Positions 35,029 to 52,770 of a stretch of 64,000 nucleotides of DNA are shown one piece after another (position 1 is the stretch's first letter; the number at the start of each line of letters is the position of its first letter). Below the pieces are notes generated by a model, which worked only from the letters and a program-made list of their open reading frames with translations, did no database searches and was not told the origin of the DNA. A program made the translations under genes and the position numbers. The stretch comes from a candidate division KSB1 bacterium (lineage in GTDB: Bacteria > Zhuqueibacterota > Zhuqueibacteria > Residuimicrobiales > Krinioviventaceae). The stretch covers positions 1,054,001 to 1,118,000 of the forward strand of contig JAXHMJ010000005.1 in NCBI GenBank assembly GCA_034521575.1, given 5' to 3'.

Positions 35029-35053
35029 CATTTTTGTTTAATATATTTTCGAA

Positions 35054-35515: not shown

Positions 35516-35572
35516 GACTAGCGTCGCGGATCAGGCGCGCTGTCAAGCGTCGCCTGCATGCTGTCGTTCGAC
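35516..35572. repeat. attC site g
   Basis: A short 57-bp site. The right core is GTTCGAC (35566-35572); the left core reads GACTAGC, with G in place of the second A of the AAC triplet. Arms GGATCAGGCG and CGCCTGCATG pair. TCGAAC at 36888-36893 complements the right core. Confidence 0.65.
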
Positions 35573-35605
35573 TGCTCTGTGCCCCGGAATTTCGCAGGGG
35601 CCCGT

Positions 35606-36770: not shown

Positions 36771-36886
36771 AGCAATCCTCCTTCAGTTGAACGATTTAGT
36801 TAACCAGAAGGCGCGTTTTGTGCTCCGATCTGGTTCGAGTTTATTTTTCACCACGAAGAGCAGCTTTGTGGTGATTCATTCTCTTT

Positions 36887-36943
36887 CTCGAACGTCATCC
36901 ATGAGGCGCGCCATTAGGCGTCGCCTCGATGGAATTGTTGGCA
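36887..36943. repeat. attC site g2
   Basis: Cores CTCGAAC (36887-36893) and GTTGGCA (36937-36943). Arms ATCCATGAGGCG and CGCCTCGATGGA pair. GTTGGCA is the exact complement of TGCCAAC at 38418, which defines the polygalacturonase cassette. Confidence 0.8.
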
Positions 36944-36949
36944 TAATTC

Positions 36950-38401
36950 TCAGTCTTGCTGAACATCCCTGCAATTGATGAATGAAATGGGATTTCCTTT
37001 AGAGGGTTCGCTTTTGATATTTATCAGTTTTAGACCGTTCACCCATTTGAAGGTCATGCCGGTGCTGGCTTTGATGGAAACATTTTCCAGCGTTATGTTC
37101 TCTAAAGGCTTATGGCTAATTCCGTTCATACTCAAGGCAACTCTGGCACCATCACAGGTTACATTCTTGATCGTAATATCTCTAAACACAGGATAAGCCT
37201 TGCCGCCCTTGTCCGCCAGGTAGGCCCCATAGTGGGTGTTGATGCGTATTGCCTCCGCCTTGATATTCTTCATTTTGATATTCTGATACCAAATATTCTC
37301 CACAACACCGCCACGGGAAGCGTTGGATTTCAGGCGAATACCCCTGTCAGCTCCGTCGAACTCGCAGTCATGCGCAAAAATGTTGCGGACATCGCCGGAC
37401 ATATCACTCCCGATTACGATGCCACCATGGCTCCGAAATCCTTTGATATGACGGACAACCACGTTCTCTGTCGGCTTGCCCACCCGCCATCCGTCTTCGT
37501 TGATGCCGGACTTGAGTGCAATACAATCATCACCTGCGTTGATTTGACAGTATTCAACGAGCGCGTTTTTTGTTGAGTTCAAGTTGATCCCGTCAGTGTT
37601 TGGGCCACCTTTGGTTTCCAAGCAAAGTTTCCTTACAATCACGTTTTCGCAATACAGAATATCAAAAGTCCAGAATGGCCCGGGCGCGGCAACGGTAAAG
37701 CTCTCAAACAGAACGTTCTTGCAGTTCACGGGATTAAAGAACTGGGGTCTGAGCGCAGACTTTGGGGTGCCGTGTATTCGTTTCTCCGGTGGCAGGTTCT
37801 TACGAATTTGTGTGTCGTATATAACACGGGCCATCTTATCGTCCCGTCCCTTCCACCCCCACCAGGCTTTGCCGTGACCGAACAGCTTGCCTGGGCCAGT
37901 GATGGCAATATTCTCGCAGTCCCTGGCGTAGATAAGAGGAGAATAGTTGTAAAGTTCAAAACCGGCCCAGCGTGTGAAAACCACAGGCAGGTAGTCCTGT
38001 GGGTCATCACTGAAGTGGAGCTCAGCTCCCTCTTCAAAATGTAAATTCACATTGCTCTTCAAGTGAATGGGTCCTGTAAACCATTTGCCCTTTGGAACCA
38101 GAACTTTTCCTCCACCCGCTGCAGAACAGGCTTCAATGGCTTTCTTGAAGGCTTTGGTGTTCTTTGTCTTGCCATCCCCTTTGGCGCCATACTGACTGAT
38201 GCTGAAGATTTGGTCCTTAAATACCGGTTTTTTCAACTGCGGCATCTTGAAAGGCGCCTCTATCTTCTCAATCTTCACAGGCGCTTTCTGGATAATAGCT
38301 GGCGTATCTGTTGCTCTTTCCGCTACTACTACCCGGCTTTGAATTAAGAGCAAAACACTAGTAGCCACGAGTCGTGCATAGTTCATCAAATTGAGTTTCA
38401 T
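36950..38401 (-). CDS. GH28 polygalacturonase-type glycoside hydrolase
   Basis: A 483-residue exported enzyme. A signal peptide (LVATSVLLLIQSRVVVA) is followed by ISQYGAKGDGKTKNTKAFKK, the usual start of the GH28 right-handed beta helix. Active-site motifs are complete: GPNTDGINLNST, GDDCIALKSG, FRSHGGIVIGS and RGIRLKS. It should hydrolyse galacturonan-type polymers such as pectin. The stop lies beside site g2 and the start about 17 bp after the core of site h, with complementary ends, so the gene is one integron cassette. Likely acts outside the cytoplasm. Confidence 0.92.
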   Translation of the reverse strand: MKLNLMNYARLVATSVLLLIQSRVVVAERATDTPAIIQKAPVKIEKIEAPFKMPQLKKPVFKDQIFSISQYGAKGDGKTKNTKAFKKAIEACSAAGGGKVLVPKGKWFTGPIHLKSNVNLHFEEGAELHFSDDPQDYLPVVFTRWAGFELYNYSPLIYARDCENIAITGPGKLFGHGKAWWGWKGRDDKMARVIYDTQIRKNLPPEKRIHGTPKSALRPQFFNPVNCKNVLFESFTVAAPGPFWTFDILYCENVIVRKLCLETKGGPNTDGINLNSTKNALVEYCQINAGDDCIALKSGINEDGWRVGKPTENVVVRHIKGFRSHGGIVIGSDMSGDVRNIFAHDCEFDGADRGIRLKSNASRGGVVENIWYQNIKMKNIKAEAIRINTHYGAYLADKGGKAYPVFRDITIKNVTCDGARVALSMNGISHKPLENITLENVSIKASTGMTFKWVNGLKLINIKSEPSKGNPISFINCRDVQQD

Positions 38402-38417
38402 CTTCTTTCCTTTTCTC

Positions 38418-38545
38418 TGCCAACAATTAAATCAGCCGTTTTAACCGCATCGGACAAACCAGCGCAAACCAACTGAACCTGACATTGCCCCGAAATGTGC
38501 CTGAACGAATCGGCGGTTAAAATCGGCTGCATTTGCTTGTTATAG
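38418..38545. repeat. attC site h
   Basis: Cores TGCCAAC (38418-38424) and GTTATAG (38539-38545), with arms AAATCAGCCGTTTTAACCGC and GCGGTTAAAATCGGCTGCATT. It is almost identical to site i apart from the cores, as expected for cassettes recombined at the same point. GTTATAGC complements GCTATAAC at site i. Confidence 0.88.
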
Positions 38546-38626
38546 CCTTATTGTGCGAGTCCGCAAAATTTATGATAATGTTGGTGTTAGCTTGTTATGA
38601 CACACTTCAGTTGAACATGTACCAAT

Positions 38627-39571
38627 TCACTTGCTAATTTGTATATTAATTATATAGGTTCCTGAATTTTGCGGACGCACCTTTTCTGTTCCAAGCATTG
38701 TATCGTAAATGATGCTTTTCCCATCTGGAGACCATGAAGCCCGAACTTCGTTTGCGTCTTTTGTATCCAGAACTTTAACTGCTTTTTGGCTGCCGTCACT
38801 TTTAATAATGAATAGGTCATAATTGTCAGATTCCATATTTGAATAGAGAATCCATTCACCGTCCGGTGACCACGTTGGGTATTCTCCTCCCTCTGTTGTA
38901 ATCTGCGTCAAGTTGCTGCCGTCGGTGTTGACTGTCCAAATGTTATAAACATTTGAAATATTGTCAATTGACTCAAACACGACTTTGGAACCGTCCGGTG
39001 AAAATTTTGGCCAACCTTCATAGGTGCGGTCTACAAGAATATACTCGGTTTTGTTTGTTGACAAATTTGTCAACCCGAGAAAATCGTCCTCACTATTCGT
39101 AGAAGAAAAATCTGCATCATACACAATATTATGTCCATCCGACGACCAGTCACCGGCTTGGACAGTTACTGTGTCCGGTGATATATGTTTTATTTCTTTA
39201 TCATCAATGGATATTGTAAAAATATAATATTCTTGCTCGTCTATTCGGTTTGAGCTAAAGCCAAGGGAACGGCCGTCCGGTGCCCAAAAAGGGTGCATGT
39301 CTATGGACGCCTCAAATGTAATTTGCTGAACAGTGCTGCCGTCTTTGGATGTTATAAAAATATCCTGTCTTGTTTCTTCAGTCCAACCTGTATATGCGAT
39401 CTGTGTTCCGTCCGGCGACCATTCCGGGTGCTTTCCACTGTCAATAAGCAGTTTAGGTTCTGATACATTTATTTTTACCTGTCCGTTGTCTTTTTTGAGA
39501 GGACTCAAGTCTTCTTCACACCCAACAATAAAAAGTAGGGCAGCAACGATTGTCATAATTTTTAATCTCAC
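38627..39571 (-). CDS. TolB-like WD40/PD40 lipoprotein
   Basis: A 314-residue lipoprotein. The GTG start has AAAGGAG upstream. The signal peptide ends in the lipobox FIVGC (Cys 18). Six repeats of the PD40 type follow, each with a core like HPEWSPDGTQIAYT, HPFWAPDGRSLGFS, WPKFSPDGSKVVFE or YPTWSPDGEWILYS, predicting a six-bladed propeller like the C-terminal domain of TolB. No tol-pal genes lie nearby, so a surface-binding role is more likely than Tol function. It is a complete cassette between attC sites h and i. Confidence 0.9.
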   Translation of the reverse strand: MRLKIMTIVAALLFIVGCEEDLSPLKKDNGQVKINVSEPKLLIDSGKHPEWSPDGTQIAYTGWTEETRQDIFITSKDGSTVQQITFEASIDMHPFWAPDGRSLGFSSNRIDEQEYYIFTISIDDKEIKHISPDTVTVQAGDWSSDGHNIVYDADFSSTNSEDDFLGLTNLSTNKTEYILVDRTYEGWPKFSPDGSKVVFESIDNISNVYNIWTVNTDGSNLTQITTEGGEYPTWSPDGEWILYSNMESDNYDLFIIKSDGSQKAVKVLDTKDANEVRASWSPDGKSIIYDTMLGTEKVRPQNSGTYIINIQISK

Positions 39572-39811
39572 AATAACTCCTTTAGATCTTGATACTGAAG
39601 ATCTAGTGATGAAGGTTAATTACGACAAGAATTTTCTATATTCACAATAGAAAGGTGACTAATGGCTTTGTTTGAATATCCCGTATAATTAAAGATACGA
39701 ATGTAGCGAATTATATCAATAGTATTTTTAAGTGATCGATATAATTATTTAAAATTGCACATTAAATGCCGATTGGTTTTTCTGATGTAGATAATTTATT
39801 GTTGATGATAG

Positions 39812-39939
39812 CTATAACAATTAAATCAGCCGTTTTAACCGCATCGGACAAACCAGCGCAAACCAACTGAACCTGACATTGCCCCGAAATGTGCCTGAAC
39901 GAATCGGCGGTTAAAATCGGCTGCAGTTGCTTGTTAGCA
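39812..39939. repeat. attC site i
   Basis: Cores CTATAAC (39812-39818) and GTTAGCA (39933-39939). Its body differs from site h by only about one base over some 110 bp. GTTAGCAG complements CTGCTAAC at site j. Confidence 0.88.
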
Positions 39940-39984
39940 GAATATGCCGGCAATTATTGATTTATTCCGCACGTATGCTTGCGC

Positions 39985-40386
39985 TTATTGACGATTAATG
40001 AAATCTTTTGATATTCGAAGGACAAAATCTTTTACTTGCTTGGCATCCTTAAGCGCAAGATTCATATCTTCGTCGTTCAAGTCGAATGGATATGGATATC
40101 GAACATTAACGCTGTAGTCCGTTAATCTCAGGCATTCATCTTCGATAATTTTAAATTCGACATAATATTCGCTGCAAAGTTTATTCAATATGACCAAATC
40201 ATGAGTTTTTAACACCTCATGATTATTGAGAACTAAAAAACCCTTCAAGTATTTTTCAGCAGATTGTTGACAATGGTAACAAATGATTTCAATAGGGCGG
40301 GGGTGCATTGTCAAAAGGTGATTAGCTGAGGATAAATCAATTTTTGCAATATCAAACCATTCTTGAGCAAGTTGGCTGTTATCCAT
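39985..40386 (-). CDS. HEPN-domain toxin of a HEPN-MNT pair
   Basis: A 133-residue helical HEPN protein: WFDIAKIDLSSANHLL, EIICYHCQQSAEKYLKGFLV and the characteristic SVNVRYPYPFDLND near the C-terminus. In such pairs the HEPN protein is an RNase and the MNT nucleotidyltransferase its antitoxin. Note that the usual R-x4-6-H ribonuclease motif is not clear in the late region here, so this may be the PF05168 type with altered chemistry. It overlaps the MNT gene by 8 bp. Same cassette as MNT. Confidence 0.85.
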   Translation of the reverse strand: MDNSQLAQEWFDIAKIDLSSANHLLTMHPRPIEIICYHCQQSAEKYLKGFLVLNNHEVLKTHDLVILNKLCSEYYVEFKIIEDECLRLTDYSVNVRYPYPFDLNDEDMNLALKDAKQVKDFVLRISKDFINRQ

Positions 40387-40696
40387 TTAGCAGAATCCCC
40401 TGATTTAGAATTTTATATTCCAATGTATTTTGATGTGCAGCTCTTTGTTGAAATTCATAAGAGTCATAAATTAAAATGTCGAGGGGGATATTTAGAATAT
40501 TATTGATTTCCTTTCTTATTGCTCTTATTAAATCAATCTTTCTATTATTTCCTAAATTAGTTGTTACGCATAAATCAAGGTCACTTTCAATATTGGGCTC
40601 TCCCTGTGCATAGGAGCCAAACAGAAAAATATCTTTCACTGGAAATTTCGAGTCTATTGTTGACGCGATTAAGTTTATTTGATCATTTGTTATCAT
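40379..40696 (-). CDS. MNT-type minimal nucleotidyltransferase antitoxin
   Basis: About 105 residues from the ATG at 40696 (MITNDQINLIAST). The nucleotidyltransferase motif is intact: FLFGSYAQGEPNIESDLDLC, with the GS turn and two Asp residues, and a third Asp in IPLDILIYDS. In known MntA-HepT pairs it inactivates the toxin by adding AMP. The longer frame to 40747 begins with an unlikely basic leader. Cassette bounded by attC sites i and j. Confidence 0.87.
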   Translation of the reverse strand: MITNDQINLIASTIDSKFPVKDIFLFGSYAQGEPNIESDLDLCVTTNLGNNRKIDLIRAIRKEINNILNIPLDILIYDSYEFQQRAAHQNTLEYKILNQGILLNG

Positions 40697-40802
40697 GAGT
40701 TCAATTCTTATATATTTTATGAAAAGTTTTCTATACCTAACCAACAATTATGCTGTTCAATTTCCTGTTAAAGAGATGATAAAAATTTTTGATTTTCGAC
40801 CC

Positions 40803-40931
40803 TGCTAACACTTTGCTCACGCGCGGCGGCGAGCAACCAATCAGATTGACCAACGAATTCTGCCACTGAATTTGACCTCGAAGCTGTCAAAGGCGACGGC
40901 GCCAGCCGTCGCGTGCAGCAGATTGTTGAAC
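40803..40931. repeat. attC site j
   Basis: Cores TGCTAAC (40803-40809) and GTTGAAC (40925-40931, perfect GTTRRRY). Arms CTTTGCTCACGCGCGGCGGC and the inverse of GCCGTCGCGTGCAGCAGATT pair with the usual bulges. GTTGAACT nearly complements AGTCCAAC at site k0 (one mismatch). Confidence 0.85.
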
Positions 40932-41028
40932 TAAGCCCGCCCAAAAAAGCGGGCGGGCACTTTTGCCTGATAATTGCAGCCATCGTGAACCTCACAAATC
41001 AATTATTCATTTTAAAAGGAGGTTCACG

Positions 41029-41895
41029 ATGACTGACTGGCGTACACGTATGACTGAAGACATGCAACTCAAAGGCATGTCGGAACGAACAATTGAAATG
41101 TACATTCGTTCTATTGCTCAACTTTCAACATATTACCAAAAACCACCTGGTCAAATCACCGAAGAGGAACTGCGCCAATACTTCCTCTACAACAAAAACA
41201 AACGCAAATGGTCGCGAACCGCATGTACCATTGCATTATGCGGTATCAAGTTCTTTTTTACCCATACCCTGCAACGCGATTGGACAACAATCAGGTTTGT
41301 GCGTCCTGAAAAACAAAAATCATTACCTGTTGTATTAAGCCAGGCTCAAGTTCACAAAATTTTAAAGAACGTACGGTTTCCTCATCATCAGGCCTGTTTA
41401 TTCACGATCTATTCTCTCGGTCTTCGGCTTCAAGAAGGTACCCATCTCCAAATATCCGACATTGATTCTGAACGTATGTTTGTCCATATTCATCGCGGCA
41501 AAGGAAACAAGGACAGATATATACCATTACCTCAACGCACTCTTGAATTGTTGAGAACTTTCTACAAAACACATCGAAATCCAAAATGGATATTCCCGGC
41601 ACCTGGCCGTGGTGGAAACGCTATGCCAACCACTGACAAACCTATTCCTTTGACAAGTATACAAATTGCTTTCAAAGAAGCCAAGGATGCTGTTAAAATT
41701 GCAAAAAAGGTTTCTGTTCACCATCTCCGGCATTCGTATGCCACACATTTACTCGAAGCCGGCGTTGATCTGAGGTTTGTGCAAAAATATCTCGGCCACG
41801 AAGATCCCAAAACAACCATGATCTATACTCAACTGATCAATCAGAATCTGCCTGACCCAGTTCATGTGATCAATAAGGTTATGAACAGCCTGTGA
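41029..41895 (+). CDS. XerC/D-like tyrosine recombinase of an IS91-type element
   Basis: About 288 residues from the ATG at 41029, set by AAAGGAGG just upstream. The N-terminal SAM-like domain is RMTEDMQLKGMSERTIEMYI. Catalytic residues are visible: Arg in YSLGLRLQEG, Lys in HRGKGNKDRYIPL, His-x-x-Arg in HHLRHSYATHLLEAG, His in LGHEDPKTT and the nucleophile Tyr in MIYTQL. Its stop overlaps the transposase start region. It is not an integron integrase: the extra helix region between the Lys and HxxR motifs does not resemble IntI, and its pairing with an IS91 transposase is the known arrangement of such elements. Confidence 0.88.
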   Translation: MTDWRTRMTEDMQLKGMSERTIEMYIRSIAQLSTYYQKPPGQITEEELRQYFLYNKNKRKWSRTACTIALCGIKFFFTHTLQRDWTTIRFVRPEKQKSLPVVLSQAQVHKILKNVRFPHHQACLFTIYSLGLRLQEGTHLQISDIDSERMFVHIHRGKGNKDRYIPLPQRTLELLRTFYKTHRNPKWIFPAPGRGGNAMPTTDKPIPLTSIQIAFKEAKDAVKIAKKVSVHHLRHSYATHLLEAGVDLRFVQKYLGHEDPKTTMIYTQLINQNLPDPVHVINKVMNSL

Positions 41896-42989
41896 TCACA
41901 ATGGCGGACATTATCCGCCAATATGGAAATGAAACAATTGCAAAATATAGACCAAGTATTCTTCCAAGTCATTATAAAACCATGCAGAATATTGTTGACT
42001 GTAGAACTTCTGCACTGGGTGGACAGACTTGGAAATGTGAAGAATGCCGCAAAATACATTACAGTTATCATTCATGTAGAAATCGACATTGTCCAAAATG
42101 TCAAAATGACCGCGCAAATCAATGGCTTGCCAAACAATATCAGACTCTGTTGCCGACATCCTATTTTTTGGCGACCATTACAATACCAAATGAACTGCAT
42201 ACCGCCTTTCAACAACATCAAAGAATGCTTTACTCGTTACTCTTTCGAGCCGCCGCTCAGGCGCTGCTAATTCTGGCAAAAGAGAAAAAATACCTCGGCG
42301 CCGATATCGGCATGATGGGTGTTTTGCATACATGGACGCGCGATCTGAGATATCACCCGCATATTCATTTCCTTATACCGGCTGGCGGACTGACCAAAGA
42401 TGGCAAACGCTGGAAATGGGCCAAACCCGATTTTCTGGTGCATGTCAAACCCTTGTCAATATTGATTCGCAGATTATTCAAAGATGCTCTCATTCAGAAA
42501 AATTTGAATCTTCATCTGCCAGTCAATACATGGAAAAAGAAATGGGTTTGTCATATCAAACCAGTTGGAAACGGACAATCAGCTCTTAAATACTTGGCAC
42601 CATACATCATGCGTGTAGCCATTTCTGACAAAAACATAATAAACTTACAACATGGCAAGGTAACATTCCGCTATAAAGATGCTCAAACAGATACCGTGAA
42701 AACCCGGTCACTGGATGCCAATGAATTCATATATCTGTTCTTACAACATATTCTTCCAAAAAGCTTTGTAAAAGTGCGCTATTTTGGAATATTGGCCACC
42801 AAAAAACGAGGTGAATTGGCATATGTCAAAGAACTGATCGGTGAACGTTTACAAACAAATATTGATGATTTAATCACAGACGATAAAATCATGAAATGCC
42901 CTGACTGCGGACATGCACTGATTTTTGTCGCGGAAATCCCGAAAACAAGAGGACCTCCAAATATTGGGCTTACAATCTCAAAACTTTAA
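41892..42989 (+). CDS. IS91-family HUH transposase
   Basis: About 362-365 residues. The N-terminal zinc ribbon is CRNRHCPKCQNDRANQWLAK, the HUH metal motif is HPHIHFLIPAGG (about 152-163), and the tyrosine-bearing helix has ALKYLAPYIMRVAISDKN. A C-terminal CPDCGHALIF may bind a second zinc. Such enzymes move DNA by single-strand rolling-circle transfer. Start GTG 41892 or ATG 41901; either overlaps or abuts the recombinase stop. The gene appears intact. Confidence 0.9.
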   Translation: MITMADIIRQYGNETIAKYRPSILPSHYKTMQNIVDCRTSALGGQTWKCEECRKIHYSYHSCRNRHCPKCQNDRANQWLAKQYQTLLPTSYFLATITIPNELHTAFQQHQRMLYSLLFRAAAQALLILAKEKKYLGADIGMMGVLHTWTRDLRYHPHIHFLIPAGGLTKDGKRWKWAKPDFLVHVKPLSILIRRLFKDALIQKNLNLHLPVNTWKKKWVCHIKPVGNGQSALKYLAPYIMRVAISDKNIINLQHGKVTFRYKDAQTDTVKTRSLDANEFIYLFLQHILPKSFVKVRYFGILATKKRGELAYVKELIGERLQTNIDDLITDDKIMKCPDCGHALIFVAEIPKTRGPPNIGLTISKL

Positions 42990-43231
42990 AAAATCATTTT
43001 CAATGACATGGGTGACGTATGTCTTTTATATTAGAAAACAGTAGTTTTGCCTTGTTTACAGCTTATTTTGAACCTTGCTCAGGATTTGATACTATTCATT
43101 TTTCTAGTATTTTTTCCGAGATATATTTTCTGAACAGTTTTTAACTGTTGTGTAGAGTGCCTTCCCAAAAATGTAAATTCCATTAACTTACAACTCCACT
43201 ACTAAAACTCGCTACGAGTCGTTAGGGCCAA

Positions 43232-43299
43232 GTCCAACCCCGCGTTCGCATATCGACCTTCACTGCGTTCAGGTCGAATGCAACGCTTATTCGTTAGCC
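43232..43299. repeat. attC site k0
   Basis: Cores GTCCAAC (43232-43238) and GTTAGCC (43293-43299). Arms GCGTTCGCATATCGACCT and AGGTCGAATGCAACGC pair strongly. GTTAGCCGT exactly complements ACGGCTAAC at site k, enclosing the mazF cassette. Confidence 0.87.
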
Positions 43300-43371
43300 G
43301 TTTACTTGAAATGATCTCATATACTTTAAAAAGTCTGTGCTTGATTTTGCAAATTTTTATCTATGCCCAAT

Positions 43372-43728
43372 TTACACAGCAAAAAAGTTAGCGAGCTCTT
43401 CTTTGAAGGAAGTAATATCTTTATTGCTTAATTTACCAAATTGCTTAACGATAATCTTTTTGTCGATGGTTGCGAATCTCATACGAATCATTGAAGGTTT
43501 TGGCAAATTTGCTTTTTGCCACTCTTGAATATGATAATCGCCTAATTTAACTTTTATATCAATTTTGCTGGTGATAAAAGCAATAACAATATCTAAGCCT
43601 TTATTATATTCATCTGGTGAGACGACGAGAGCGGGGCGTTTTTTAGACGAAGATAGGTCTGTAAATGGAAATGGGACAAGGACAATGTCCCATTTTTTAT
43701 AATGTATTGTAGATTTCATCTTCTTCAT
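43372..43728 (-). CDS. MazF/PemK-type endoribonuclease toxin
   Basis: A 118-residue toxin; a start nine bases in (MKSTIHYKKWD) is equally possible. Family marks are WDIVLVPFPFTDLSSSKKRPALVVSPDEYN, with the Arg-Pro-Ala strand, and the later MIRMRFATIDKKI. MazF enzymes cut mRNA at short sequences. The RHH antitoxin gene upstream overlaps its start by 31 bp. The cassette is bounded by sites k0 and k with 9-nt complementary ends. Confidence 0.88.
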   Translation of the reverse strand: MKKMKSTIHYKKWDIVLVPFPFTDLSSSKKRPALVVSPDEYNKGLDIVIAFITSKIDIKVKLGDYHIQEWQKANLPKPSMIRMRFATIDKKIIVKQFGKLSNKDITSFKEELANFFAV

Positions 43729-43939
43729 TATCCCATTCTGAGAATGAAAATTCTGACATTTTCATGATCTCTTTTAGGTTTTCGCTTTCTGAAAGATTAA
43801 TCAATACATCCTTTTTTTCGTCAATATAGTTTTCAATTAATTCAGTTAGAATACTGCTCATTGATTTGCCTTCAATGGATGCAATAATTTTTAATGCTTT
43901 TCTTTTATTGTCATCTATTCTTACACTCATAACACTCAT
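43697..43939 (-). CDS. RHH (CopG-like) antitoxin of the MazF toxin
   Basis: About 80 residues from the ATG at 43939 (AAGGAG upstream). MSVRIDDNKRKALKIIASIEG is a ribbon-helix-helix DNA-binding segment, and the acidic tail (FSFSEWDNEEDEIYNTL) is the likely toxin-binding part. An inverted repeat TTACCT...AGGTAA (43962-43983) lies just upstream of the gene and could be its operator. Confidence 0.85.
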   Translation of the reverse strand: MSVMSVRIDDNKRKALKIIASIEGKSMSSILTELIENYIDEKKDVLINLSESENLKEIMKMSEFSFSEWDNEEDEIYNTL

Positions 43940-43961
43940 AATAAATCTCCTTTTTGTAGTC

Positions 43962-43983
43962 TTACCTACAAAAAGTAAGGTAA
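43962..43983. promoter_or_regulatory. candidate operator upstream of mazF-type pair
   Basis: Six-base arms TTACCT and AGGTAA with a 10-base spacer lie about 23 bp upstream of the antitoxin ATG. This is the place and size expected for RHH autoregulation. Short, so it could be chance. Confidence 0.3.
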
Positions 43984-44103
43984 TCATTATTAAATGTCAA
44001 TGATTAAATTAAATTGCATATACAAATATTTCGTTGTGCTTGAGATTGTGATGTTTTATCAGGCTATTTTCATCGAAAACAATTTACGATTTGCTTTTTT
44101 TAC

Positions 44104-44238
44104 GGCTAACATCAAGTATTTTATCCTGCGTTGAGCCCGGAAAAAACCGCACATGACTGCGGTTCTTCCAGGAATGATTACAATAGTTATAAATTGTCAA
44201 ACAAACAAGCTCAATGCTGGATAAAATAACGGTTGAAC
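44104..44238. repeat. attC site k
   Basis: Cores GGCTAAC (44104-44110) and GTTGAAC (44232-44238), with arms CAAGTATTTTATCCTGCG and the inverse of GCTGGATAAAATAACGG. Nearly identical to site e, and the match continues to about 44460. Confidence 0.85.
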
Positions 44239-44365
44239 GATGCCGCGGTCTATGCCTATCTCTATCCAATATCATAGTGTTGAAAATATTACCTTTTTGC
44301 TTTTTATCACTGATTTTATTGACATTTTTCAAGAATTCATCTCTTTTCATTCTTGTCCAACTCGA

Positions 44366-44562
44366 AAAAACTCGCCAGAGCATACGTCACCAATGGCCCC
44401 GAGTGAAATTTTTAAAATTGTGACACCGAAAACATCATTTTATACCTCTATGGTGGTTGATAAACCGGTAATTGCTGATCGCAACCCGGTGCTTATAGCG
44501 GCCCGGATAATCAATCACTCGTTCCGGATCGCGATAAACATCTTTGCAAACCGTAATCCACT
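44366..44562 (-). mobile_element. IS91-like relic, copy 3 (truncated)
   Basis: Matches the left about 200 bp of copies 1 and 2, including the GAGCATACGTCACCAATGG end and the transposase tail. It then stops abruptly near 44562, where group II intron RT sequence begins. Confidence 0.7.
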
Positions 44563-44831
44563 TTTTTTAATATGCCATGATCCAAACTGTCGAAAAACTT
44601 GCTCACATCTGCATCCACTATCCAGCGAATATTCTGCCTGTAACATTGTTCTCTGAGTTCCTTGATGGCCTGGTGAGGGCTGCGCCCTTCACGAAACCCA
44701 TAAGAAAAATCATAGAAATCCTGTTCGTAGACCGAACTCATAACCATACTGACTGCCCGCTGCACAACCTTGTCCTCGAATGTTGGCATACCCAGAGGAC
44801 GTTGACATAACAAAGCAGGAAGCAGCTTCAT
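44563..44831 (-). pseudogene. group II intron reverse-transcriptase fragment
   Basis: The minus frame reads RPLGMPTFEDKVVQRAVSMV, FYDFSYGFREGRSPHQA and WIVDADVSKFFDSLDH, which are RT blocks 1 to 3 of bacterial group II intron proteins. It lacks the N-terminus, the YADD active site and the maturase domain. It ends at the IS91 relic on one side. Upstream DNA to about 45.2 kb may include intron RNA. Some group IIC introns are known to insert at attC sites, and the array context fits that, but class cannot be told from this fragment. Confidence 0.75.
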
Positions 44832-45239
44832 TATGCCCGGGGTGTTTTGTCAACCGGTTACCCCATCGTTCTTTGGTGTGAATACAAGGAAACAGAAGGC
44901 TCTCCCAAGTTCCCAGGCTACTCTTTTGAGTACATGATCTGGTCTTAGACCCCGGTGGTGTCTCATGAACTCGCCACTTGCGTTCATGAGACTGCTGCCT
45001 TCCAAAAAATGCAGTCCGTCGGCTTTTCAAAGCGAATACCGTTCGCTCCTTATCCTTATGTCCACAACTATACATATTTCGGGGCTCAATACAGACCCTG
45101 CACCCTCGATTCCCTCAGCTTCGTACGCCCGTTACCGGGCTTGCACGTGAGGTTCACTACTGCCCTGTTGGCTAAACTTTGAGCAGGTGGGACTTGCACC
45201 CACTGGGTAACGTAATCGTATTTCAATGAACTTTGCCAT
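44832..45239. other. possible intron 5' region, no gene supported
   Basis: No ORF with recognisable protein. On the minus strand this DNA precedes the RT fragment and contains inverted repeats (for example TCATGAACTCGCCA / GCGTTCATGAG), as expected for the structured 5' RNA of a group II intron. A full intron fold was not derived. Confidence 0.3.
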
Positions 45240-45287
45240 CTCCCAACGATCTGGATTTAGCTTGGCACGAGCAAAATTGTGTTATGC
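45240..45287. repeat. attC-like site l
   Basis: Right core GTTATGC (45281-45287) is certain, because GTTATGCAA complements TTGCATAAC at 46017-46025. The left core TCCCAAC and the weak arms around GATTTAGCTTGG are less convincing; the site may be altered by the intron. Confidence 0.5.
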
Positions 45288-45320
45288 AAAATTATGATTT
45301 ACCTGATTTTTCCAAATTTA

Positions 45321-45998
45321 TTATTCTACTTTAAATCCAAATAAATCTAATGATACAGCCATCCATTTGGCCACGTGATATGATCCTTGAGGAATTGGCT
45401 CGTTATCATAGTCTAGTTCTACATTTGAATGCTGATATACTAAATCAAAAGCCGATTCTGCGTCTGGTACTACTACTAATGTTTCCTTTGGATTCAAATT
45501 CAAGTGTTCAACTTTTATTCTCCATTCACGTTCCCACGTGTAATCAATCCCTTGATCTGGTTCATATCGTACATGTCTATATTTTAATTTGTCAGGTAAT
45601 AATTTAAAATCACTTTCAGGTTGATAAATTACCGGTCTACCACCTTTTGAAAAAAGCCATTCTTTTTTTACAGCTACTCCATATGGTTCATAACGAGTTT
45701 TATCGTCTAACGATTCCGCAATATTTATTAAAGAAAACAATGACGCTAACTCTGATATTGGAGATTCTGTAAAACATATACATTTAAATCCACCACGAAT
45801 ATTATTCGATGAGCCCTTAAGTGAACCATCAGATAATATTTTCTCAAGAACCGATAATGCGCTTTGGGGCAATGTTCTATTATATTTATCATTTTTGATT
45901 TCAACTTTTGAATCTGGTTTTCTTGTAAAATGGAAGAGTAGGTTCCCCAAATCTCTTCGCACTAAATTTATTCTTTTTTGTAAGCGATTTTCATTCAT
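45321..45998 (-). CDS. AbiGi/DUF2971-like protein
   Basis: A 225-residue soluble protein. LLFHFTRKPDS, a central GFKCICFTESPISELASL and YGVAVKKEWLFSKGGRPVIY recall the AbiGi antitoxin and DUF2971 families, which occur in abortive-infection loci and may share an ADP-ribosyltransferase-like fold. TWEREWRIKVEHL is the usual acidic-aromatic segment (Glu-Arg-Glu-Trp-Arg). No partner toxin gene lies beside it. It is the single gene of a cassette with 9-nt complementary ends. Assignment is from motif memory. Confidence 0.65.
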   Translation of the reverse strand: MNENRLQKRINLVRRDLGNLLFHFTRKPDSKVEIKNDKYNRTLPQSALSVLEKILSDGSLKGSSNNIRGGFKCICFTESPISELASLFSLINIAESLDDKTRYEPYGVAVKKEWLFSKGGRPVIYQPESDFKLLPDKLKYRHVRYEPDQGIDYTWEREWRIKVEHLNLNPKETLVVVPDAESAFDLVYQHSNVELDYDNEPIPQGSYHVAKWMAVSLDLFGFKVE

Positions 45999-46018
45999 TT
46001 ATAATTTTGTCTTTACTT

Positions 46019-46037
46019 GCATAACGTTATATTATGC
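46019..46037. repeat. collapsed attC site m
   Basis: Only 19 bp remain: GCATAAC followed almost directly by TTATGC. The left core matches the AbiGi cassette start, and TTATGCATT matches AATGCATAA at site n. The cassette boundary survives although the palindrome has been lost. Confidence 0.55.
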
Positions 46038-46104
46038 ATTACTAGTTAATCATATGGTTTTCTATCGAGACATGTCTAGTAATAGTAACCATAATCAGAT
46101 ATTT

Positions 46105-46881
46105 TTATTTTTTCGATTTTTTTTCTATATATTTAATGATCCAAATATCACTTTTATCGTTGTGTTGCGGATTGTTTTTCCTGAAAGCTAGAATAATTTG
46201 TTCATCAGTAAATTTATTGTATTTTGGATAGTTTCTTCTAAGATTTGGGAAAAATGTTTCGGGTATTGTTGGTACGGGTGTAAGTTTGTTTGTTATTTGA
46301 GGCGAATTTACATTTATTTTTAAACTTTTAAATTTATCTAATATATTTTTTATTGCTTTCTGGGCTGCAATATTTTCAACGTTTTGTCCAATTTCAGAAC
46401 CACGTGCAGAACCAGCCCAGACAATTTGACCGGTTTCACAATCAATAAGCTTAAGTGAGATTGCAGCCTTTGAAATAGGCATATAAGCTGGATCTGCCCC
46501 TTGAACAACCTGTATATTGGTTTGGATACATTGATATTCACTTATTGAACCTGTTAAAATTGCTTGAACCCCTAATACTTTTCCAATTGATGGAGCAGTA
46601 CTTTCGTCTATAAAACCAGTCATGCCTAGTTGTTGCTCTTGAAGTATATGCATTGTTTGTGATCTATCTATAATGTTATACTGCGAATTTATTAATTGCA
46701 TAGAGAGCATATCTGCTACTTGTATACCTGAACCTGGTCTATTGGGATAATCGGTTAATGGGAAAACTGCTATACGATTATATTTGCTATAATCAATATC
46801 ATTCCTTACAAATACTTCGCTACTAGCACATTGAAGAAAAATGTAAATTGTAATTGTGATTAAGATTTTATACCATTTCAT
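46105..46881 (-). CDS. CsgG/LpoB-like lipoprotein
   Basis: A 258-residue lipoprotein: the signal peptide ends in FLQCA (Cys 18), and YNRIAVFPLTDYPNRPGSG then VADMLSMQLINSQYNIIDRS, IGKVLGVQAILTGSI and CETGQIVWAGSARG are the strands of the CsgG/DUF799/LpoB fold, which builds periplasmic or pore-forming assemblies. The usual curli or penicillin-binding-protein partners are absent. The last 60 residues are polar with no recognised domain. Single-gene cassette between sites m and n. Confidence 0.78.
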   Translation of the reverse strand: MKWYKILITITIYIFLQCASSEVFVRNDIDYSKYNRIAVFPLTDYPNRPGSGIQVADMLSMQLINSQYNIIDRSQTMHILQEQQLGMTGFIDESTAPSIGKVLGVQAILTGSISEYQCIQTNIQVVQGADPAYMPISKAAISLKLIDCETGQIVWAGSARGSEIGQNVENIAAQKAIKNILDKFKSLKINVNSPQITNKLTPVPTIPETFFPNLRRNYPKYNKFTDEQIILAFRKNNPQHNDKSDIWIIKYIEKKSKK

Positions 46882-46901
46882 GACATCACCTATTTAGAAA
46901 T

Positions 46902-46956
46902 GCATAACCCAGCATCAGCGGCGGCGCGCAGCGCCGTCTGCTGCATGCTGTTGGGC
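46902..46956. repeat. attC site n
   Basis: A classic short site: cores GCATAAC (46902-46908) and GTTGGGC (46950-46956, perfect GTTRRRY), with arms CCAGCATCAGCGGCGGCGC and GCGCCGTCTGCTGCATGCTG. GTTGGGCC complements GGCCCAAC at site o. Confidence 0.92.
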
Positions 46957-47050
46957 CTACATTGAGTTATGATTGCGCCAATCCTCGTAATCATGGATAA
47001 GTTGTCCTGTGGTGTGTTCCCGAGCTCAACCAATAATAACTAACTGCATC

Positions 47051-48274
47051 TCACGAGCCCGCCTTTACAAAATGAAGTATAACTTCCTCTCGCATCCGAT
47101 TCTGCATTCTATCCCCGGCTTTTATAGATTCAGGAGGCGGCAAATAGCGTCGTCTTGTTTCAATTGGACGAGTAGTACGCGAAACAAGCGTAAGCCCATG
47201 TTGCTTTGCGAGAGAAGCCAGGGCTTCCGAGTTTTTTATAAAGACGCCGCGTATTGTTGAGTCACCAACAACAAAGATCGCTTTCCCATTCACCTTCAAT
47301 ACGCGGGCACATTCTTTTATAACTTGCTTCATATCCAAAACATAACGACGTATCATGCCCAAGTGTCGTTTACTCATTTCGTCAAGGGTTGCCATGGAGG
47401 ACATGGCTTCCTGAATTGCTATATCTGTGGAATGTTTTATTGATACTTCCGCCCCAATGTTGCCCGATCTGATTGATCGAATTTCAGGGATCTCGTGTCC
47501 CATCCAAACAAGCGACAGTTTGTGGCCGCGAAGATAGTCTATGGCGTTCAAATACGGCGGGGATGTAAGGATAATATCCATACTTGAGCTTTCAATAGGC
47601 AATGATCTTGCATCACCATGCTGGACATTTACAGAAGGAGCGACCTTGGCTTCCATTGTAAATGGGCAGTTTTTTACCACTGTTGCCACGGCTTTCTGAA
47701 AAATATTGAACGGCTTCACAGGTGCAACAGCATAAGCACGATGGGGCCTACTATGTGAGACATCCCTTGCAAGCGAAACCCCCGCGGATTTCGTTATTAT
47801 CATTCGCGAGAATGCGCACCACAAAAACATTCTTTCAGATTCAGACCGCACCCTTGAGATACAAGTCGATAAAGCGGTCAAATCACGGCGTGTTTCGGGA
47901 TCGAACCAGAAATCGATGAACTTGCGGGTCTCGACGTCAGCGCCTTTAGGATATGAGTTTTCAAGCCTCAAGCATTTGGCAAGTTCTATTGCTCGCTCTA
48001 ATACGAGTTTGGCGCGACGCAAGACCTTTTCTGGATCGGCATCGGCGCACCAAGTGCGCGAAATTAACAGCGCCAGTGGATCTGTATCACATCCAAAAGC
48101 GTGATGCCCTCTCATCCTTGCGCAGGCAAGCGTTGTTCCCGATCCTGACATCGGATCGAGAACTTTCAAGGAATCGCCTTGCGACGGCAGTGCATCCCAC
48201 ACAATCGAAGGCGCCATCCTTGCCGGGAATGGATGAACAGGTCGAATGTGAGCTTTTTGCGTTGCCGGAATCAT
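47051..48274 (-). CDS. DNA adenine/cytosine-N4 methyltransferase
   Basis: A 407-residue SAM-dependent DNA methyltransferase. Motif I is DPMSGSGTT (40-48) and motif IV is TSPPY (237-241), in that order, with the catalytic loop after a variable region. TSPPY allows N6-adenine or N4-cytosine methylation; the recognition sequence cannot be read. The N-terminal RPVHPFPARMAPSIVW is typical of MTases of this site-specific type. Its start overlaps the end of the GHKL ATPase-nuclease gene by ATGA, so it should be the modification arm of a restriction-like system. Part of one 4-kb cassette. Confidence 0.9.
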   Translation of the reverse strand: MIPATQKAHIRPVHPFPARMAPSIVWDALPSQGDSLKVLDPMSGSGTTLACARMRGHHAFGCDTDPLALLISRTWCADADPEKVLRRAKLVLERAIELAKCLRLENSYPKGADVETRKFIDFWFDPETRRDLTALSTCISRVRSESERMFLWCAFSRMIITKSAGVSLARDVSHSRPHRAYAVAPVKPFNIFQKAVATVVKNCPFTMEAKVAPSVNVQHGDARSLPIESSSMDIILTSPPYLNAIDYLRGHKLSLVWMGHEIPEIRSIRSGNIGAEVSIKHSTDIAIQEAMSSMATLDEMSKRHLGMIRRYVLDMKQVIKECARVLKVNGKAIFVVGDSTIRGVFIKNSEALASLAKQHGLTLVSRTTRPIETRRRYLPPPESIKAGDRMQNRMREEVILHFVKAGS

Positions 48275-50826
48275 ATGTGTATTGTCCTTCTTTCCGCTTC
48301 GGGATATTGACCAACAGCCGTCTGTATATCCTGTAAAATCAAATCGGGCCTGCGGTTGATTTCAACGGTGTTCTCACGAGCATACACAACTCCGCTTGCA
48401 AGTACCTGCATTGCTTTGCAGCAGTCGACTAGTTCAGCCTTTGACATTCTTACCGGAGGCTCTCGATGCCGAAGCTCGGTCACAACGGCGGCATATTCCA
48501 CTGCTTCATTCGGAACTTCTTCTGCCAATTTCCAAATAGTTTCAAGTATCTCTTTGTACGGCCTTCTTTCTGGTTCCTCTTCGGAGAGGACATCTACCCA
48601 GTCCTTACTTTCTTCAGGTGTAACACAGTCTCTGAAAAGGCCACGAAGGCGGCTGAGACCACCAATTCGCTTTGCCGAAGCGATACGGATCAATCGCGCC
48701 AAGTCGTCAATATGCATCAGCGTGATTGTTCTTCTTGTCTTTTCCTTGTGGTTGTTGATATCACGGACCGTGGCTGAATTTACTTCATTCGAGGTAGCAA
48801 AGCCATTTCCGATCACCAAATGATGGTCGCATCTGTAATCTTCCATGTGCCTTGCAATTCCCGATACATTCAGGCGATGAGCCGAAACAGTCTTACCGCT
48901 CTTTGCCTCAAGGCCGACTTTATAACGTTGAACGGAACCATCTTCCGATGCGGCTAAATGGGCTTCGGCTGTGCCATCCGGCTTGCCGCTTCCGCCGATG
49001 CGAATTACATTCGCAAAACCCATTGCCTCAAAAGCTGCGCGCATTTCTTCTTCCAGTTCGTTTGCGTCGTCACGAGCTTCGGTGAGCGCGAGTGCAATCA
49101 TGCCGGCCGTTCGGCGCGCAGAGGATCTGACAAACTGTCGTAGCAGCTCGTCACGTCTCCCAATCGCATCGCGAATCACGCTTTCATCCAAGCCCATGTG
49201 GTATAAATGGGCCTCAAGGAGGATTTCCGCCATGACTACCATTTCGAGAGGAAGGCTTCGGGCAGGATCGGAAAAGAATTCCTGAAAGGCAGCGATGAAA
49301 GGATGGGAAGAATTAACGAGAAGTTTGCCTTCTCGAGCATCGAAAACCGCCAGACCGTCCTTCGAGTCCAAGACGCTGATCTCTAAGCGAAGTAAGCCAT
49401 CCGCGCCTTCAGCCTGTTCCTGCAGGGTCTTAAGTAAGGCGGCATTCTCCTCAGCGGACAGTCCGGATGGGAAGCGAAGATAAAATGGCGTCGCCCGATT
49501 TTCGGCAACCATCCGGGCCAGCGCCAACAGGGGCTTTCTTGTCAAACTGCCCGGAGCTGCGGAGATACTGGCAAACATTCGGGCTGATGGCGTTTGTGTG
49601 CGGTCATGTTCCACGAGCTTGTTGCGCGCCATATTAAAGGCGGCACGTAGGAAATTCTGAACAGCTTCATACAAATCGCCTTGTTGAAACGATTCTCGTG
49701 AAGATCGGAGCGCTTCATCCAAACTGTCGATATGAACGACCATCCTGAAACGAGAAAACGTGCCATGCCGTAAGAGATTCCGCTCAATGCCAAATCCGGG
49801 ATCATCAACATTGACCCTTCGTCCTCTGACATAAACGAAGAATCCACTGCTTTGCTCAAACTTTTCTTTCCCTCTATCAAGTTCATCTGCGAAAATCTCG
49901 ATATACCCCGTAATCCTGCCTAGTAATTCCTCGTGATAAACTCCATAGCGGTGAATGGAATCTTCCGATTCTCTTGTGTCCTCACGCGCAATCAATCCTG
50001 TCGGGCATGGTGGCGACATTGCAATGACATCTTTGCCAAGGACAAGCTTCTTGAGGGGGCGATCCATTTCGGGAGGTGTTATCGGATCACCATCAAGAAA
50101 AAGCCGAAAATCGATCTGCTGAGGCATGGCGGTTCTCAAAACCCACCTAAGGCGCCCAATCTTGACCTTTTGGCCCATTTCTTTGAGGTTCGACATAATC
50201 GCGACGGTCCACGATTCAGATGCTTCTTCTCCAAACAGCCTGAGCGCCTGATAACCGTCCTTATCCCCACGGGTCCAATACTGAACTGCCTCTCTTGCCT
50301 GTTCCATGGTCAACGTTCGTAATGGTATCTGGATCGTTTGCTCATCAAAAACGCCCTCAGAGGCATCGGTGACGCTTCCGGTCAAGTTGGAATAATCCAT
50401 TGTTGCGGCATAATACGTATCGCCGGATTTACTAATATGGGTCAACTTTGCAGCCAGGACGTATGTTGACAACTTGCCGATTCCGAATCTCCCGATGGGC
50501 TTACGTCTCGAAGAACCACCGGCTCTTCGCCGTGTGCTTTCTCCAATGATCCAATGCTTCTTCAAACCGTCTCCATTCATTCCCTCGCCATCATCAATGA
50601 TTACGATTGTCGCGTCTGGAGCTCGGAGATCCGGCGCGAGTAAGATGTGAACATTGTTTGCGCCGGCGTCGAAGGAATTGGAAACGAGTTCTTCAATAGC
50701 CTTGTTAGGACTGGAATATAGCCCTTCCGAGAATAGCTGTATGATTCGATGGCTGATTCGGACATCTATTTGGTCCGTTGTTGCGCCCGCTGTCGCATAG
50801 GATGCTGTCTTATCAGGAATCGGCAT
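48271..50826 (-). CDS. GHKL (MORC/MutL-like) ATPase with C-terminal PD-(D/E)XK-like nuclease
   Basis: An 851-residue protein. The N-terminal HSP90-type ATPase is complete: catalytic Glu in AIEELVSNSFDAGA (E46, Asn 50), nucleotide-binding IIDDGEGM (D78-M83) and GRFGIGKLS (112-120). A middle helical-beta region follows to about residue 600. The C-terminal part has GSGKPDGTAEAH (D617) and, after a strand, GLEAKSGK (E640, K642), the spacing of a restriction-endonuclease-like fold, then LVIGNGF. ATP-driven clamp and cleavage in one chain, coupled to a methyltransferase, is the pattern predicted for bacterial MORC-type restriction systems. The nuclease call is inferred from motifs. Confidence 0.85.
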   Translation of the reverse strand: MPIPDKTASYATAGATTDQIDVRISHRIIQLFSEGLYSSPNKAIEELVSNSFDAGANNVHILLAPDLRAPDATIVIIDDGEGMNGDGLKKHWIIGESTRRRAGGSSRRKPIGRFGIGKLSTYVLAAKLTHISKSGDTYYAATMDYSNLTGSVTDASEGVFDEQTIQIPLRTLTMEQAREAVQYWTRGDKDGYQALRLFGEEASESWTVAIMSNLKEMGQKVKIGRLRWVLRTAMPQQIDFRLFLDGDPITPPEMDRPLKKLVLGKDVIAMSPPCPTGLIAREDTRESEDSIHRYGVYHEELLGRITGYIEIFADELDRGKEKFEQSSGFFVYVRGRRVNVDDPGFGIERNLLRHGTFSRFRMVVHIDSLDEALRSSRESFQQGDLYEAVQNFLRAAFNMARNKLVEHDRTQTPSARMFASISAAPGSLTRKPLLALARMVAENRATPFYLRFPSGLSAEENAALLKTLQEQAEGADGLLRLEISVLDSKDGLAVFDAREGKLLVNSSHPFIAAFQEFFSDPARSLPLEMVVMAEILLEAHLYHMGLDESVIRDAIGRRDELLRQFVRSSARRTAGMIALALTEARDDANELEEEMRAAFEAMGFANVIRIGGSGKPDGTAEAHLAASEDGSVQRYKVGLEAKSGKTVSAHRLNVSGIARHMEDYRCDHHLVIGNGFATSNEVNSATVRDINNHKEKTRRTITLMHIDDLARLIRIASAKRIGGLSRLRGLFRDCVTPEESKDWVDVLSEEEPERRPYKEILETIWKLAEEVPNEAVEYAAVVTELRHREPPVRMSKAELVDCCKAMQVLASGVVYARENTVEINRRPDLILQDIQTAVGQYPEAERRTIHI

Positions 50827-50946
50827 TACTCGTTGTTCCTTTCCAGAACCAGATCGCGATCATCTACAAGGCAAACGATCTTGTTCATTCTAAAACTGTG
50901 TGCTTGTTGGTTTCTCAAGAAGTTGTTTCTCTTCATGCGTACGTCG

Positions 50947-51015
50947 GCCCAACGACAACCATCACCGGCGCGCGCGCCTTTGGCGCGTCCGGTGAATAAT
51001 TTTATGATGTTTTTA
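50947..51015. repeat. attC site o
   Basis: Left core GCCCAAC (50947-50953). Arms TCACCGGCGCGC and GGCGCGTCCGGTGA form a strong hairpin. The right core is degenerate (GTTTTTA, 51009-51015) and overlaps the stop codon of the AIPR gene. Confidence 0.7.
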
Positions 51016-52770
51016 ATCCGCCGACCATCTTGCCTCAAATTGATCTCTTTCCATTTTTAAGCCTTGCTTGATTTTATTTGAAATATCCGCATTCATCATA
51101 GGCAACATATTCAAACTTTGGCTCACTGCGGCTCGTATACCTGCCAAACAAGTTTTTGTTTTAATCCAATTCTGAGGGCTAAAAACTCTATTGGAGGGTT
51201 GCGGCTCATTTGCAGCCGACTCCAAAGCAAAGTTCAGAGATCTTCCGGCTAAATCAACTATTTGGTCCATAAGATCAAAATCCTTTGCTCTATTAATAGC
51301 TATGCTTGGATCAGGTACGCTTTCCATTGGCATAGAATTTGATACACCGAAACAAACCGAGATTGCATAAAGGTGGTGATATGGGGCATAGGCACGCATT
51401 GCCAGTAAACTTTCATTCAATCCTAGCGGATTATTTTTTTCCCATTTTTCCCAAACCTTTTTCATCCAAACGTTTAACGCCTGAGCTTTTTCAGCAGAGT
51501 AGTCCTTTTTAAATAGTTGATCAAAATACTTATCAAAAATTCTCGTTTCACTATACGCTATATTAGGTCTCTGTGAATGCCACGTGATCAAATATTTTCC
51601 TAAATTAAGTAAATCCAACACATAGTCTTTATCTTTGGTGGCAGGAGGAATTTCACCTCTTTTGCTTACAAAATATCCATTGGAATATTTCTGTTCATAG
51701 GATTTTTTAATATTTAGAACTCTTTTGTCATTACTTCTAAGATCCCTCGGCTTGACGGCGCTTTGCGAATTTGTGTTGATACTTATTTTGTCGCCACGCT
51801 CCCGCTGGGGGATTTCATAAAACCGAAAAAGAATATAGGTGTCGTCTAATTGTTTTACTTTTTCGCTACAATTTAAAATTGTTGTTATAGATTGGCATCC
51901 GTTCACAACGCTTAAGCCGTGAAGCTTTAATTTATTATTGTTTAATGACAACTTATTACAAATAGCTGTAATTCCGTTATGATAGAAAAAAAAGTCCTTG
52001 TGTTGGTCGGAATATATTGTACTTTTAATTCCTTTATTTACCCTGTTGCTTAATCCCAAACTTTGTCTAACATTTTTTTGAAATAGGGTGCCATCCTTTA
52101 TTCCGGGCATTTTAATGCACTCTTTGAGGGGTAGAGCGGCCACCACCACTTTGTTGCCAGCAATTTCAATCTCCATAGCTTTACTGTTGGCCAAACTGAC
52201 CTCATGATTAATCGTTGGATTATCCTTTTCAAGAGCAAGATCGTAACGCCTTTTCAATTCGTTCTTATCAACTATTTTGATATTTGCATAAAAATCGTTA
52301 GTTTCACTAAGCTCCACTAATTGAGCTTGAAATGTATCCAAATCGGCTTTTGCTGCTTCAGTTAATTCACCGGTTGTTATAAGCTCAAATTCAATTTCGT
52401 ATTCATCTTCAAGTGCTTTAGCAACCTCGGACAACTTTCTTTTTAATTTACCATTCCCAACCTCTTGCAGTCTGACCAAATCTTTTAATTGTATCCAAGA
52501 GGACAATACTTCACGTAGTGGTTCCGCATCCACAGATCCATTACCAATGAATTTGCCTTGAATGACAAAGACAGTTTGCTGATTGTCATCAATAAATAAG
52601 GCATCAATCTGCTTGTCATCAGCACCATCTGTCATATCATCTTGGGTTTCATTCATATCTCTCAAATGAATGTTGCGTAAATACCACGCAACAAATCGTT
52701 GCCCATCATTCGGAAAATATTGCTGATAGAATTTTTCTTTAATTTCATCGGTAATTTTTTGATAAATCAT
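51013..52770 (-). CDS. AIPR-family abortive phage infection protein
   Basis: A 585-residue protein. Residues near 235-345 have the AIPR core: GTLFQKNVRQSLG, FFFYHNGITAICNKL and LHGLSVVNGCQSITTI. Residues 40-80 have GADDKQIDALFIDDNQ and VFVIQGKF, spaced like the Asp and Gln-x-Lys of Mrr-type PD-(D/E)XK nucleases. AIPR genes occur in phage-defence islands, sometimes with GHKL ATPases and methyltransferases; that pair lies directly downstream here, beyond attC site o. The start is close behind GTTAGGAG (52776-52783), a possible cassette boundary that also supplies the ribosome site. Confidence 0.87.
   Translation of the reverse strand: MIYQKITDEIKEKFYQQYFPNDGQRFVAWYLRNIHLRDMNETQDDMTDGADDKQIDALFIDDNQQTVFVIQGKFIGNGSVDAEPLREVLSSWIQLKDLVRLQEVGNGKLKRKLSEVAKALEDEYEIEFELITTGELTEAAKADLDTFQAQLVELSETNDFYANIKIVDKNELKRRYDLALEKDNPTINHEVSLANSKAMEIEIAGNKVVVAALPLKECIKMPGIKDGTLFQKNVRQSLGLSNRVNKGIKSTIYSDQHKDFFFYHNGITAICNKLSLNNNKLKLHGLSVVNGCQSITTILNCSEKVKQLDDTYILFRFYEIPQRERGDKISINTNSQSAVKPRDLRSNDKRVLNIKKSYEQKYSNGYFVSKRGEIPPATKDKDYVLDLLNLGKYLITWHSQRPNIAYSETRIFDKYFDQLFKKDYSAEKAQALNVWMKKVWEKWEKNNPLGLNESLLAMRAYAPYHHLYAISVCFGVSNSMPMESVPDPSIAINRAKDFDLMDQIVDLAGRSLNFALESAANEPQPSNRVFSPQNWIKTKTCLAGIRAAVSQSLNMLPMMNADISNKIKQGLKMERDQFEARWSAD

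Follow-up and report, generated by a model that had tools for sequence, protein, structure and literature searches.

GHKL ATPases of the MORC and paraMORC groups were predicted in 2008 to be components of restriction-modification (R-M) systems, some of whose loci lack helicases, and C-terminal endonuclease domains were described for paraMORC3 in the same work by Iyer et al. (PMC2292703). That a GHKL domain can act together with a nuclease in the same chain has a tested precedent in VcSduA from the WASA strains of Vibrio cholerae, a GHKL-nuclease fusion without a methyltransferase that stops phages, and in which the substitutions E27A (ATPase) and K557A (nuclease) each abolish defence (PMC12137116). 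Here we consider a gene pair from a candidate division KSB1 bacterium, found in a window of 64,000 nucleotides (the whole stretch of DNA that was analysed, from contig JAXHMJ010000005.1), which encodes an 851-residue fusion of a GHKL ATPase with a predicted PD-(D/E)XK nuclease and, directly downstream, a DNA amino-methyltransferase. We think it likely that this pair, carried as a gene cassette, is a compact two-gene R-M system whose nuclease would be controlled by the fused, ATP-driven GHKL clamp and whose methyltransferase would mark self. Because unrelated bacteria and virus-derived contigs have this pair as well, we view it as a compact relative of known restriction systems.

The two genes lie on the minus strand and share an ATGA overlap, the fusion (the putative R component, which has relatives of full length both in genomes of bacteria and on viral contigs) occupying 48271–50826 and the 407-residue methyltransferase (the putative M component) 47051–48274. 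The ATPase domain (residues 15–150; 50377–50784, minus strand) has the three motifs that define the GHKL superfamily, namely an N-box, EELVSNSFDAGA, a G1 motif, DDGEGM, and a G2 motif, IGRFGIGKL, and Pfam places HATPase_c_3 at residues 38–148 with 71.6 bits. In all close members that span them, the N-box (E..N), G1 (DxGxG) and G2 (GxGK) are invariant or nearly so. An S5/transducer region follows (residues 151–384; 49675–50376, minus strand), recognised in a profile-profile comparison in which residues 14–384 align with BbrUII-like and other GHKL proteins at a probability of 99.5, the alignment stopping at 384. Foldseek gave MORC2 and TRAP1 as the best matches for the ATPase part, and VIA aligned it with MORC2 (9cdh_B) with a Z of 13.9 and a root-mean-square deviation of 3.3 over 183 residues. 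The segment GFFVYVRGR(R/L)(V/I) at residue 328 agrees by eye at most positions with the MORC S5 motif GhXhhpXXRhl, but has V at the polar position. Residues 15–384 are a MORC/Hsp90-like GHKL-S5 ATPase module.

The second half of the fusion contains a predicted Mrr_cat-type nuclease domain, assigned by Pfam to residues 588–713 (48688–49065, minus strand). The window protein matches Mrr_cat (PF04471) above the curated cut-off of 21 bits, with 23.1 bits in the Pfam scan and 25.6 bits when the region is scanned alone, and it has the D and ExK expected of the family: the predicted catalytic residues are D617, in a P-D-G motif (48976–48978), and E640-A-K642 (48901–48909), both on the minus strand and unchanged in the window and in all six close relatives readable across the region. 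In more distant relatives the first motif is PDG in L061, L062 and L076 and PEG in L063 (L-numbers denote the loci of relatives compared with the window), and the second is DAK in L061–L063 and EAK in L076; overall, PDG...(D/E)AKS in L061, L062 and L076 is the literal PD-(D/E)XK pattern. When aligned with genuine Mrr_cat domains in hhalign, the nuclease region gave a probability of 88% with a first alignment and 74% with a cleaned one, while 50 column-shuffled profiles reached at most 8% and other regions of the 851-residue protein less than 1%. A search of PDB sequences with the nuclease profile returned no match. An AlphaFold model of the full-length protein built from six sequences (model 2) has a helix at 588–602, strands at 618–624 and 633–639 and a helix at 655–664, consistent with the expected alpha-beta-beta-beta-alpha-beta core at a predicted local distance difference test score (pLDDT) of about 43–77. 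The original prediction, made from the letters and translations of the window, had proposed this fusion together with D617, E640, K642 and the methyltransferase motif beginning at T237, and all of these are located as it claimed.

The fusion ends in a helical tail, delimited from the secondary structure of model 2 at residues 723–851 (48274–48660, minus strand). Helices followed by a beta hairpin give a winged-helix-like order of elements at about 757–823, with a local pLDDT mostly of 76–88 up to residue 840, and the modelled tail is a possible DNA-binding part. The tail and the methyltransferase were both considered as a hypervariable target-recognition region. At 38% mean identity the tail varies more than any other part of the fusion, yet it is not hypervariable.

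The methyltransferase matches N6_N4_Mtase in Pfam (41.5 bits) and MTase_II in PADLOC, and motif alignment identifies both hallmarks of the SPPY amino-methyltransferases: motif I for binding S-adenosylmethionine, DPMSGSGTT (48131–48157), and a catalytic motif IV of the (S/N/D)PP(Y/F) type, TSPPY (47552–47566), both on the minus strand. HPFPAR, DPMxGSGT and SPPYLN are invariant among seven members. The locus thus has the two parts that define a Type II-like R-M system, a putative restriction gene and an adjoining DNA methyltransferase gene, and this arrangement is conserved. An amino-methyltransferase adjoins the ATPase-nuclease in 10 of the 10 loci with a readable neighbour (the window, L002, L055–L059 and L061–L063, from three bacterial phyla and three viral contigs), mostly overlapping it or lying within 50 bases, with a spacing of 161 in L056. 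The partner belongs to the same family in 8 of these; in L061 a relative with 25% identity takes its place and lies upstream, and in L062 the partner is of another class. In L076, Vsr-like and C5-methyltransferase-like open reading frames (ORFs) stand next to the fusion instead. ATPase and methyltransferase distances are correlated (Mantel r 0.92, p 0.0001; without the outgroup, r 0.83, p 0.0014); the two proteins co-diverge. When the neighbourhoods of L002 and L055–L060 were compared all against all, no third gene proved to be shared. The idea of a two-gene unit with overlapping codons has therefore held, and the finding that would have spoken against it, other essential subunits recurring beside the homologues, was not made in the neighbourhoods compared.

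These facts about the partner bear on a different reading, that of a direct defence nuclease of the Shedu or paraMORC3 type, in which the fusion would sense phage DNA ends or structures alone and the methyltransferase would be an accessory or a travelling companion. The architecture is indeed shared, in that paraMORC3 and the GHKL Shedu proteins, like the window protein, join an N-terminal GHKL ATPase and a C-terminal PD-(D/E)XK nuclease in a single chain (PMC12137116, PMC2292703), and VcSduA, with the same order of GHKL, middle and PD-(D/E)XK parts, works alone (PMC12137116). However, the nuclease of VcSduA is SduA_C (DUF4263) and not Mrr_cat-like, and the described system has no cognate methyltransferase. 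SduA_C (PF14082) found no match up to an E-value of 5 in any family member scanned, whereas a control, L082, matched at 1.1e-5; we therefore rejected membership in Shedu. Consistent with this, the nuclease region of the window protein gave 0.3% against Shedu-type C-termini in hhalign. Furthermore, the methyltransferase is always adjacent and co-diverging, and is swapped for another methyltransferase rather than lost, so that we consider a stand-alone defence nuclease unlikely.

The surroundings of the gene pair are often defence-rich. In L055 it sits between HsdS and HsdR; in L056 (5755–19000)/L072 it lies between BrxC-HEC-01A/B and an incomplete BrxHI, with no further BREX gene recognised among the part of the ORFs on the L056 contig that was scanned; and in L061 it stands beside a FokI-type enzyme, a C5-methyltransferase and Vsr. 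The position of the pair among other modification systems in L055 and L056 would suit a modification-dependent or abortive system, in which the mark is a trigger or signal and the fusion cleaves DNA that carries the modification, wholly or in part, or brings about cell death if a phage blocks the methyltransferase. The Mrr family does include modification-dependent enzymes. However, a methyltransferase in the same operon would turn self DNA into a target, and the swaps of partner fit ordinary R-M pairing; we regard such a system as improbable here.

It is informative to compare the locus with the other GHKL systems associated with restriction. BbrUII and HgiDII, the named GHKL restriction family (NF050001), share with the window protein the GHKL-S5 module at the N-terminus, with homology across residues 14–384, but their C-terminal halves do not align and they are shorter (about 660 versus 850 residues). 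Membership was rejected, as the window protein scores 76.1 bits against a cut-off of 550 and over residues 34–163 only. HgiDII, SalI and BbrUII recognise GTCGAC. Because it fails both the SduA_C and the NF050001 tests, the window fusion stands outside both named GHKL families. The prokaryotic MORC R-M operons likewise place a GHKL-S5 protein beside DNA methylases, a minority of them without helicases (PMC2292703), and the closeness of the window fold to MORC2 and Hsp90/TRAP1 is a point shared with them. In contrast, most of those operons have a separate nuclease and a superfamily II helicase, whereas the window pair has a fused nuclease and no helicase. A further arrangement was seen in L019 (3272–8185) and L067 (1580–6535), where two methyltransferases related to that of the window lie beside a protein with two HATPase domains. 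By inference we liken these loci to the HEF_HK two-component-like GHKL genes found next to R-M genes (PMC8011034); they differ from the window in that an Mrr-type nuclease domain was not found in them and in the other genes of the operon. On balance, the window fusion probably acts in the manner of a restriction enzyme under GHKL control. The proposal that it may be an undescribed minimal form of anti-phage system holds only in part: the fusion lies outside the named families, but such a system had been anticipated by the 2008 prediction of GHKL ATPases in R-M loci (PMC2292703), which the original prediction had itself invoked, by VcSduA (PMC12137116) and by NF050001. The components and the idea of the system are thus anticipated; the family itself is a coherent, small, unnamed variant.

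The family is rare. One full-length relative with 78% identity, in a metagenome-assembled genome (MAG) of the Nitrospirae (L002), came out of a scan of 84,980 genomes, as did a fragment with 79% identity that lies at the end of a contig in a Planctomycetota MAG. Whole-genome searches added full-length relatives of 41–49% identity in 1 genome from the L002 phylum and 4 from the L003 phylum, together with contig-end fragments; the sample of the window's own phylum held the window copy only, and across three phylum samples the counts were 1/82, 2/296 and 6/392 genomes. Viral contigs contributed three full-length relatives (28–31% identity) and the more distant L076, with no match when they were scanned with the nuclease-region profile alone; in plasmid and phage records no full-length relative was found, the matches being to the ATPase domain only. 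Among the close relatives, 41–78% identical, the ATPase motifs, D617/E640/K642 and the methyltransferase motifs are all invariant. Between the window and L002 there are few amino-acid changes and silent changes are saturated or near-saturated; judged from these substitutions, the family is under purifying selection.

The gene pair has the layout of an integron gene cassette, with an attC site after the genes, the preceding attC-like site before them, and the orientation of the array. The site at the 3′ end is a 55-nucleotide attC (46902–46956, minus strand; a GCCCAAC...GTTATGC hairpin) of textbook strength: when the 24-kb array was shuffled 200 times under a first-order Markov model, a scan of equal strictness gave no site as strong. 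The 5′ edge is marked by an attC-like site belonging to the preceding cassette (50947–51015, minus strand), with a GTTGGGC core and a CACCGG...CCGGTG stem that resembles the attC at 34958–35028; because its R″ box is poor and partly decayed, this site is probable rather than certain. Hence, of the matching ends originally proposed, the 3′ one is clear and the 5′ one probable, and the cassette is real, but its proposed limits of 46951–50953 had been counted from the R″ box on the 3′ side; with minus-strand cut points it extends from about 50952 down to 46908, its own attC included. Same-orientation attC-type sites span about 30.7–51 kb of the window. Neither the window nor the rest of its contig has a full integron integrase, and the two full ones over the family cut-off are encoded on other contigs of the genome (C3 and C1), so that the array is of the integrase-less type (a cluster of attC sites lacking integron-integrases, CALIN). 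The cassette has a GC content of 49%, against 32–37% for its neighbours. Defence genes carried as attC cassettes are known from Vibrio chromosomal integrons (PMC12409362), but those belong to other gene families, whereas here a 4-kb, two-gene, R-M-like cassette lies in an integrase-less array. That the pair moves as a single cassette is true of one instance, the window, but no attC was detected around its closest relative, L002, and the other relatives occur in chromosomal or viral contexts; integron carriage of the gene pair looks incidental.

Several observations weigh against a functional R-M system of this kind. L063 has E where the window has D617, and only the window protein exceeds the Mrr_cat cut-off, other members lying below it or having no match. 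Confidence in model 2 is moderate (mean pLDDT 61.7, with the nuclease region in the range given above), its ATPase part and tail being the usable sections, and fold searches with the full-length model were filled by the ATPase domain, listing GHKL folds only; for these two reasons the assignment of a nuclease fold is based on sequence profiles. In L002 the fusion gene (575–3161) is frameshifted and split between residues about 575 and 590, through a sequencing error or a real break. Finally, no sigma-70-like promoter was found upstream on the coding strand; the cassette could therefore be silent. The frameshifted relative and the missing promoter, together with the decayed 5′ attC and the lack of a full integrase on the contig, are what one would expect if the cassette were a passenger, non-functional or silent, that an old array without an integrase had retained by chance. 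Such a passenger is nonetheless hard to reconcile with two intact reading frames in which every motif is present and with purifying selection on the family, and we give it very little credence.

Other genes of the array deserve brief mention. The cassette directly upstream encodes an AIPR/AbiU-like protein (PF10592; PADLOC AbiU; 51013–52770, minus strand). AIPR genes are frequent in R-M operons (PMC2292703); a role as third subunit was rejected, since an attC-like site separates this gene from the pair and it is absent from the relatives' neighbourhoods compared. The array from 28300 to 46900 appears to hold more toxin-antitoxin or defence-type genes, including PIN/Phd-type pairs, a nucleotidyltransferase-like ORF (31796–32386), a Fic-like ORF (33810–34874) and a weak AbiGi-like ORF (45321–45998), the last being the sole one of these that was profile-scanned. 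A group II intron end (Rfam RF02005, 105 bits) and a reverse-transcriptase-like fragment lie at 44511–45196 (minus strand) near an attC-like sequence, and a tyrosine-recombinase-like ORF and an IS91-like transposase ORF occupy the opposite strand of the array as an insertion (40963–42989, plus). Near-identical units at 29345–29899 and about 33080–33640, and at 32743–32876 and 44104–44238 (the latter pair palindromic and attC-like), suggest duplication within the array.

For the compact R-M system that we favour, one can imagine the following mechanism. The methyltransferase would mark a short sequence in host DNA, probably as N4-methylcytosine or N6-methyladenine. The 851-residue protein would act as the restriction component, its GHKL-S5 module binding ATP and dimerising into a closing clamp, as in MutL, MORC and Hsp90. 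Once the clamp sits on foreign DNA that lacks the modification, its binding or hydrolysis of ATP would license the PD-(D/E)XK domain to cut, with sequence recognition supplied by the winged-helix-like tail, the methyltransferase, or both. Specifically, we infer DNA as the substrate, cutting at unmethylated sites, ATP gating, dimerisation and an anti-phage effect. A broader proposal, which we advance tentatively and think somewhat doubtful, is that the family represents a distinct class of helicase-free, ATP-gated restriction, in which a MORC-like GHKL clamp would replace the translocating helicase, check methylation and license a fused Mrr-type nuclease, with interchangeable methyltransferases and with integrons, contigs of viral origin and other defence loci as its routes of spread.

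The presence of GHKL ATPases in R-M loci has been a prediction since 2008, for the most part with no mechanism worked out. A two-gene unit with ATPase and nuclease in one chain, and with no helicase or separate specificity subunit, would, if the reading proposed here is true, be a simple place to study how a MutL/MORC-like clamp controls cutting. Its size of four kilobases and its cassette form make for easy cloning and testing, and the same unit would bear on the origin of MORC proteins.

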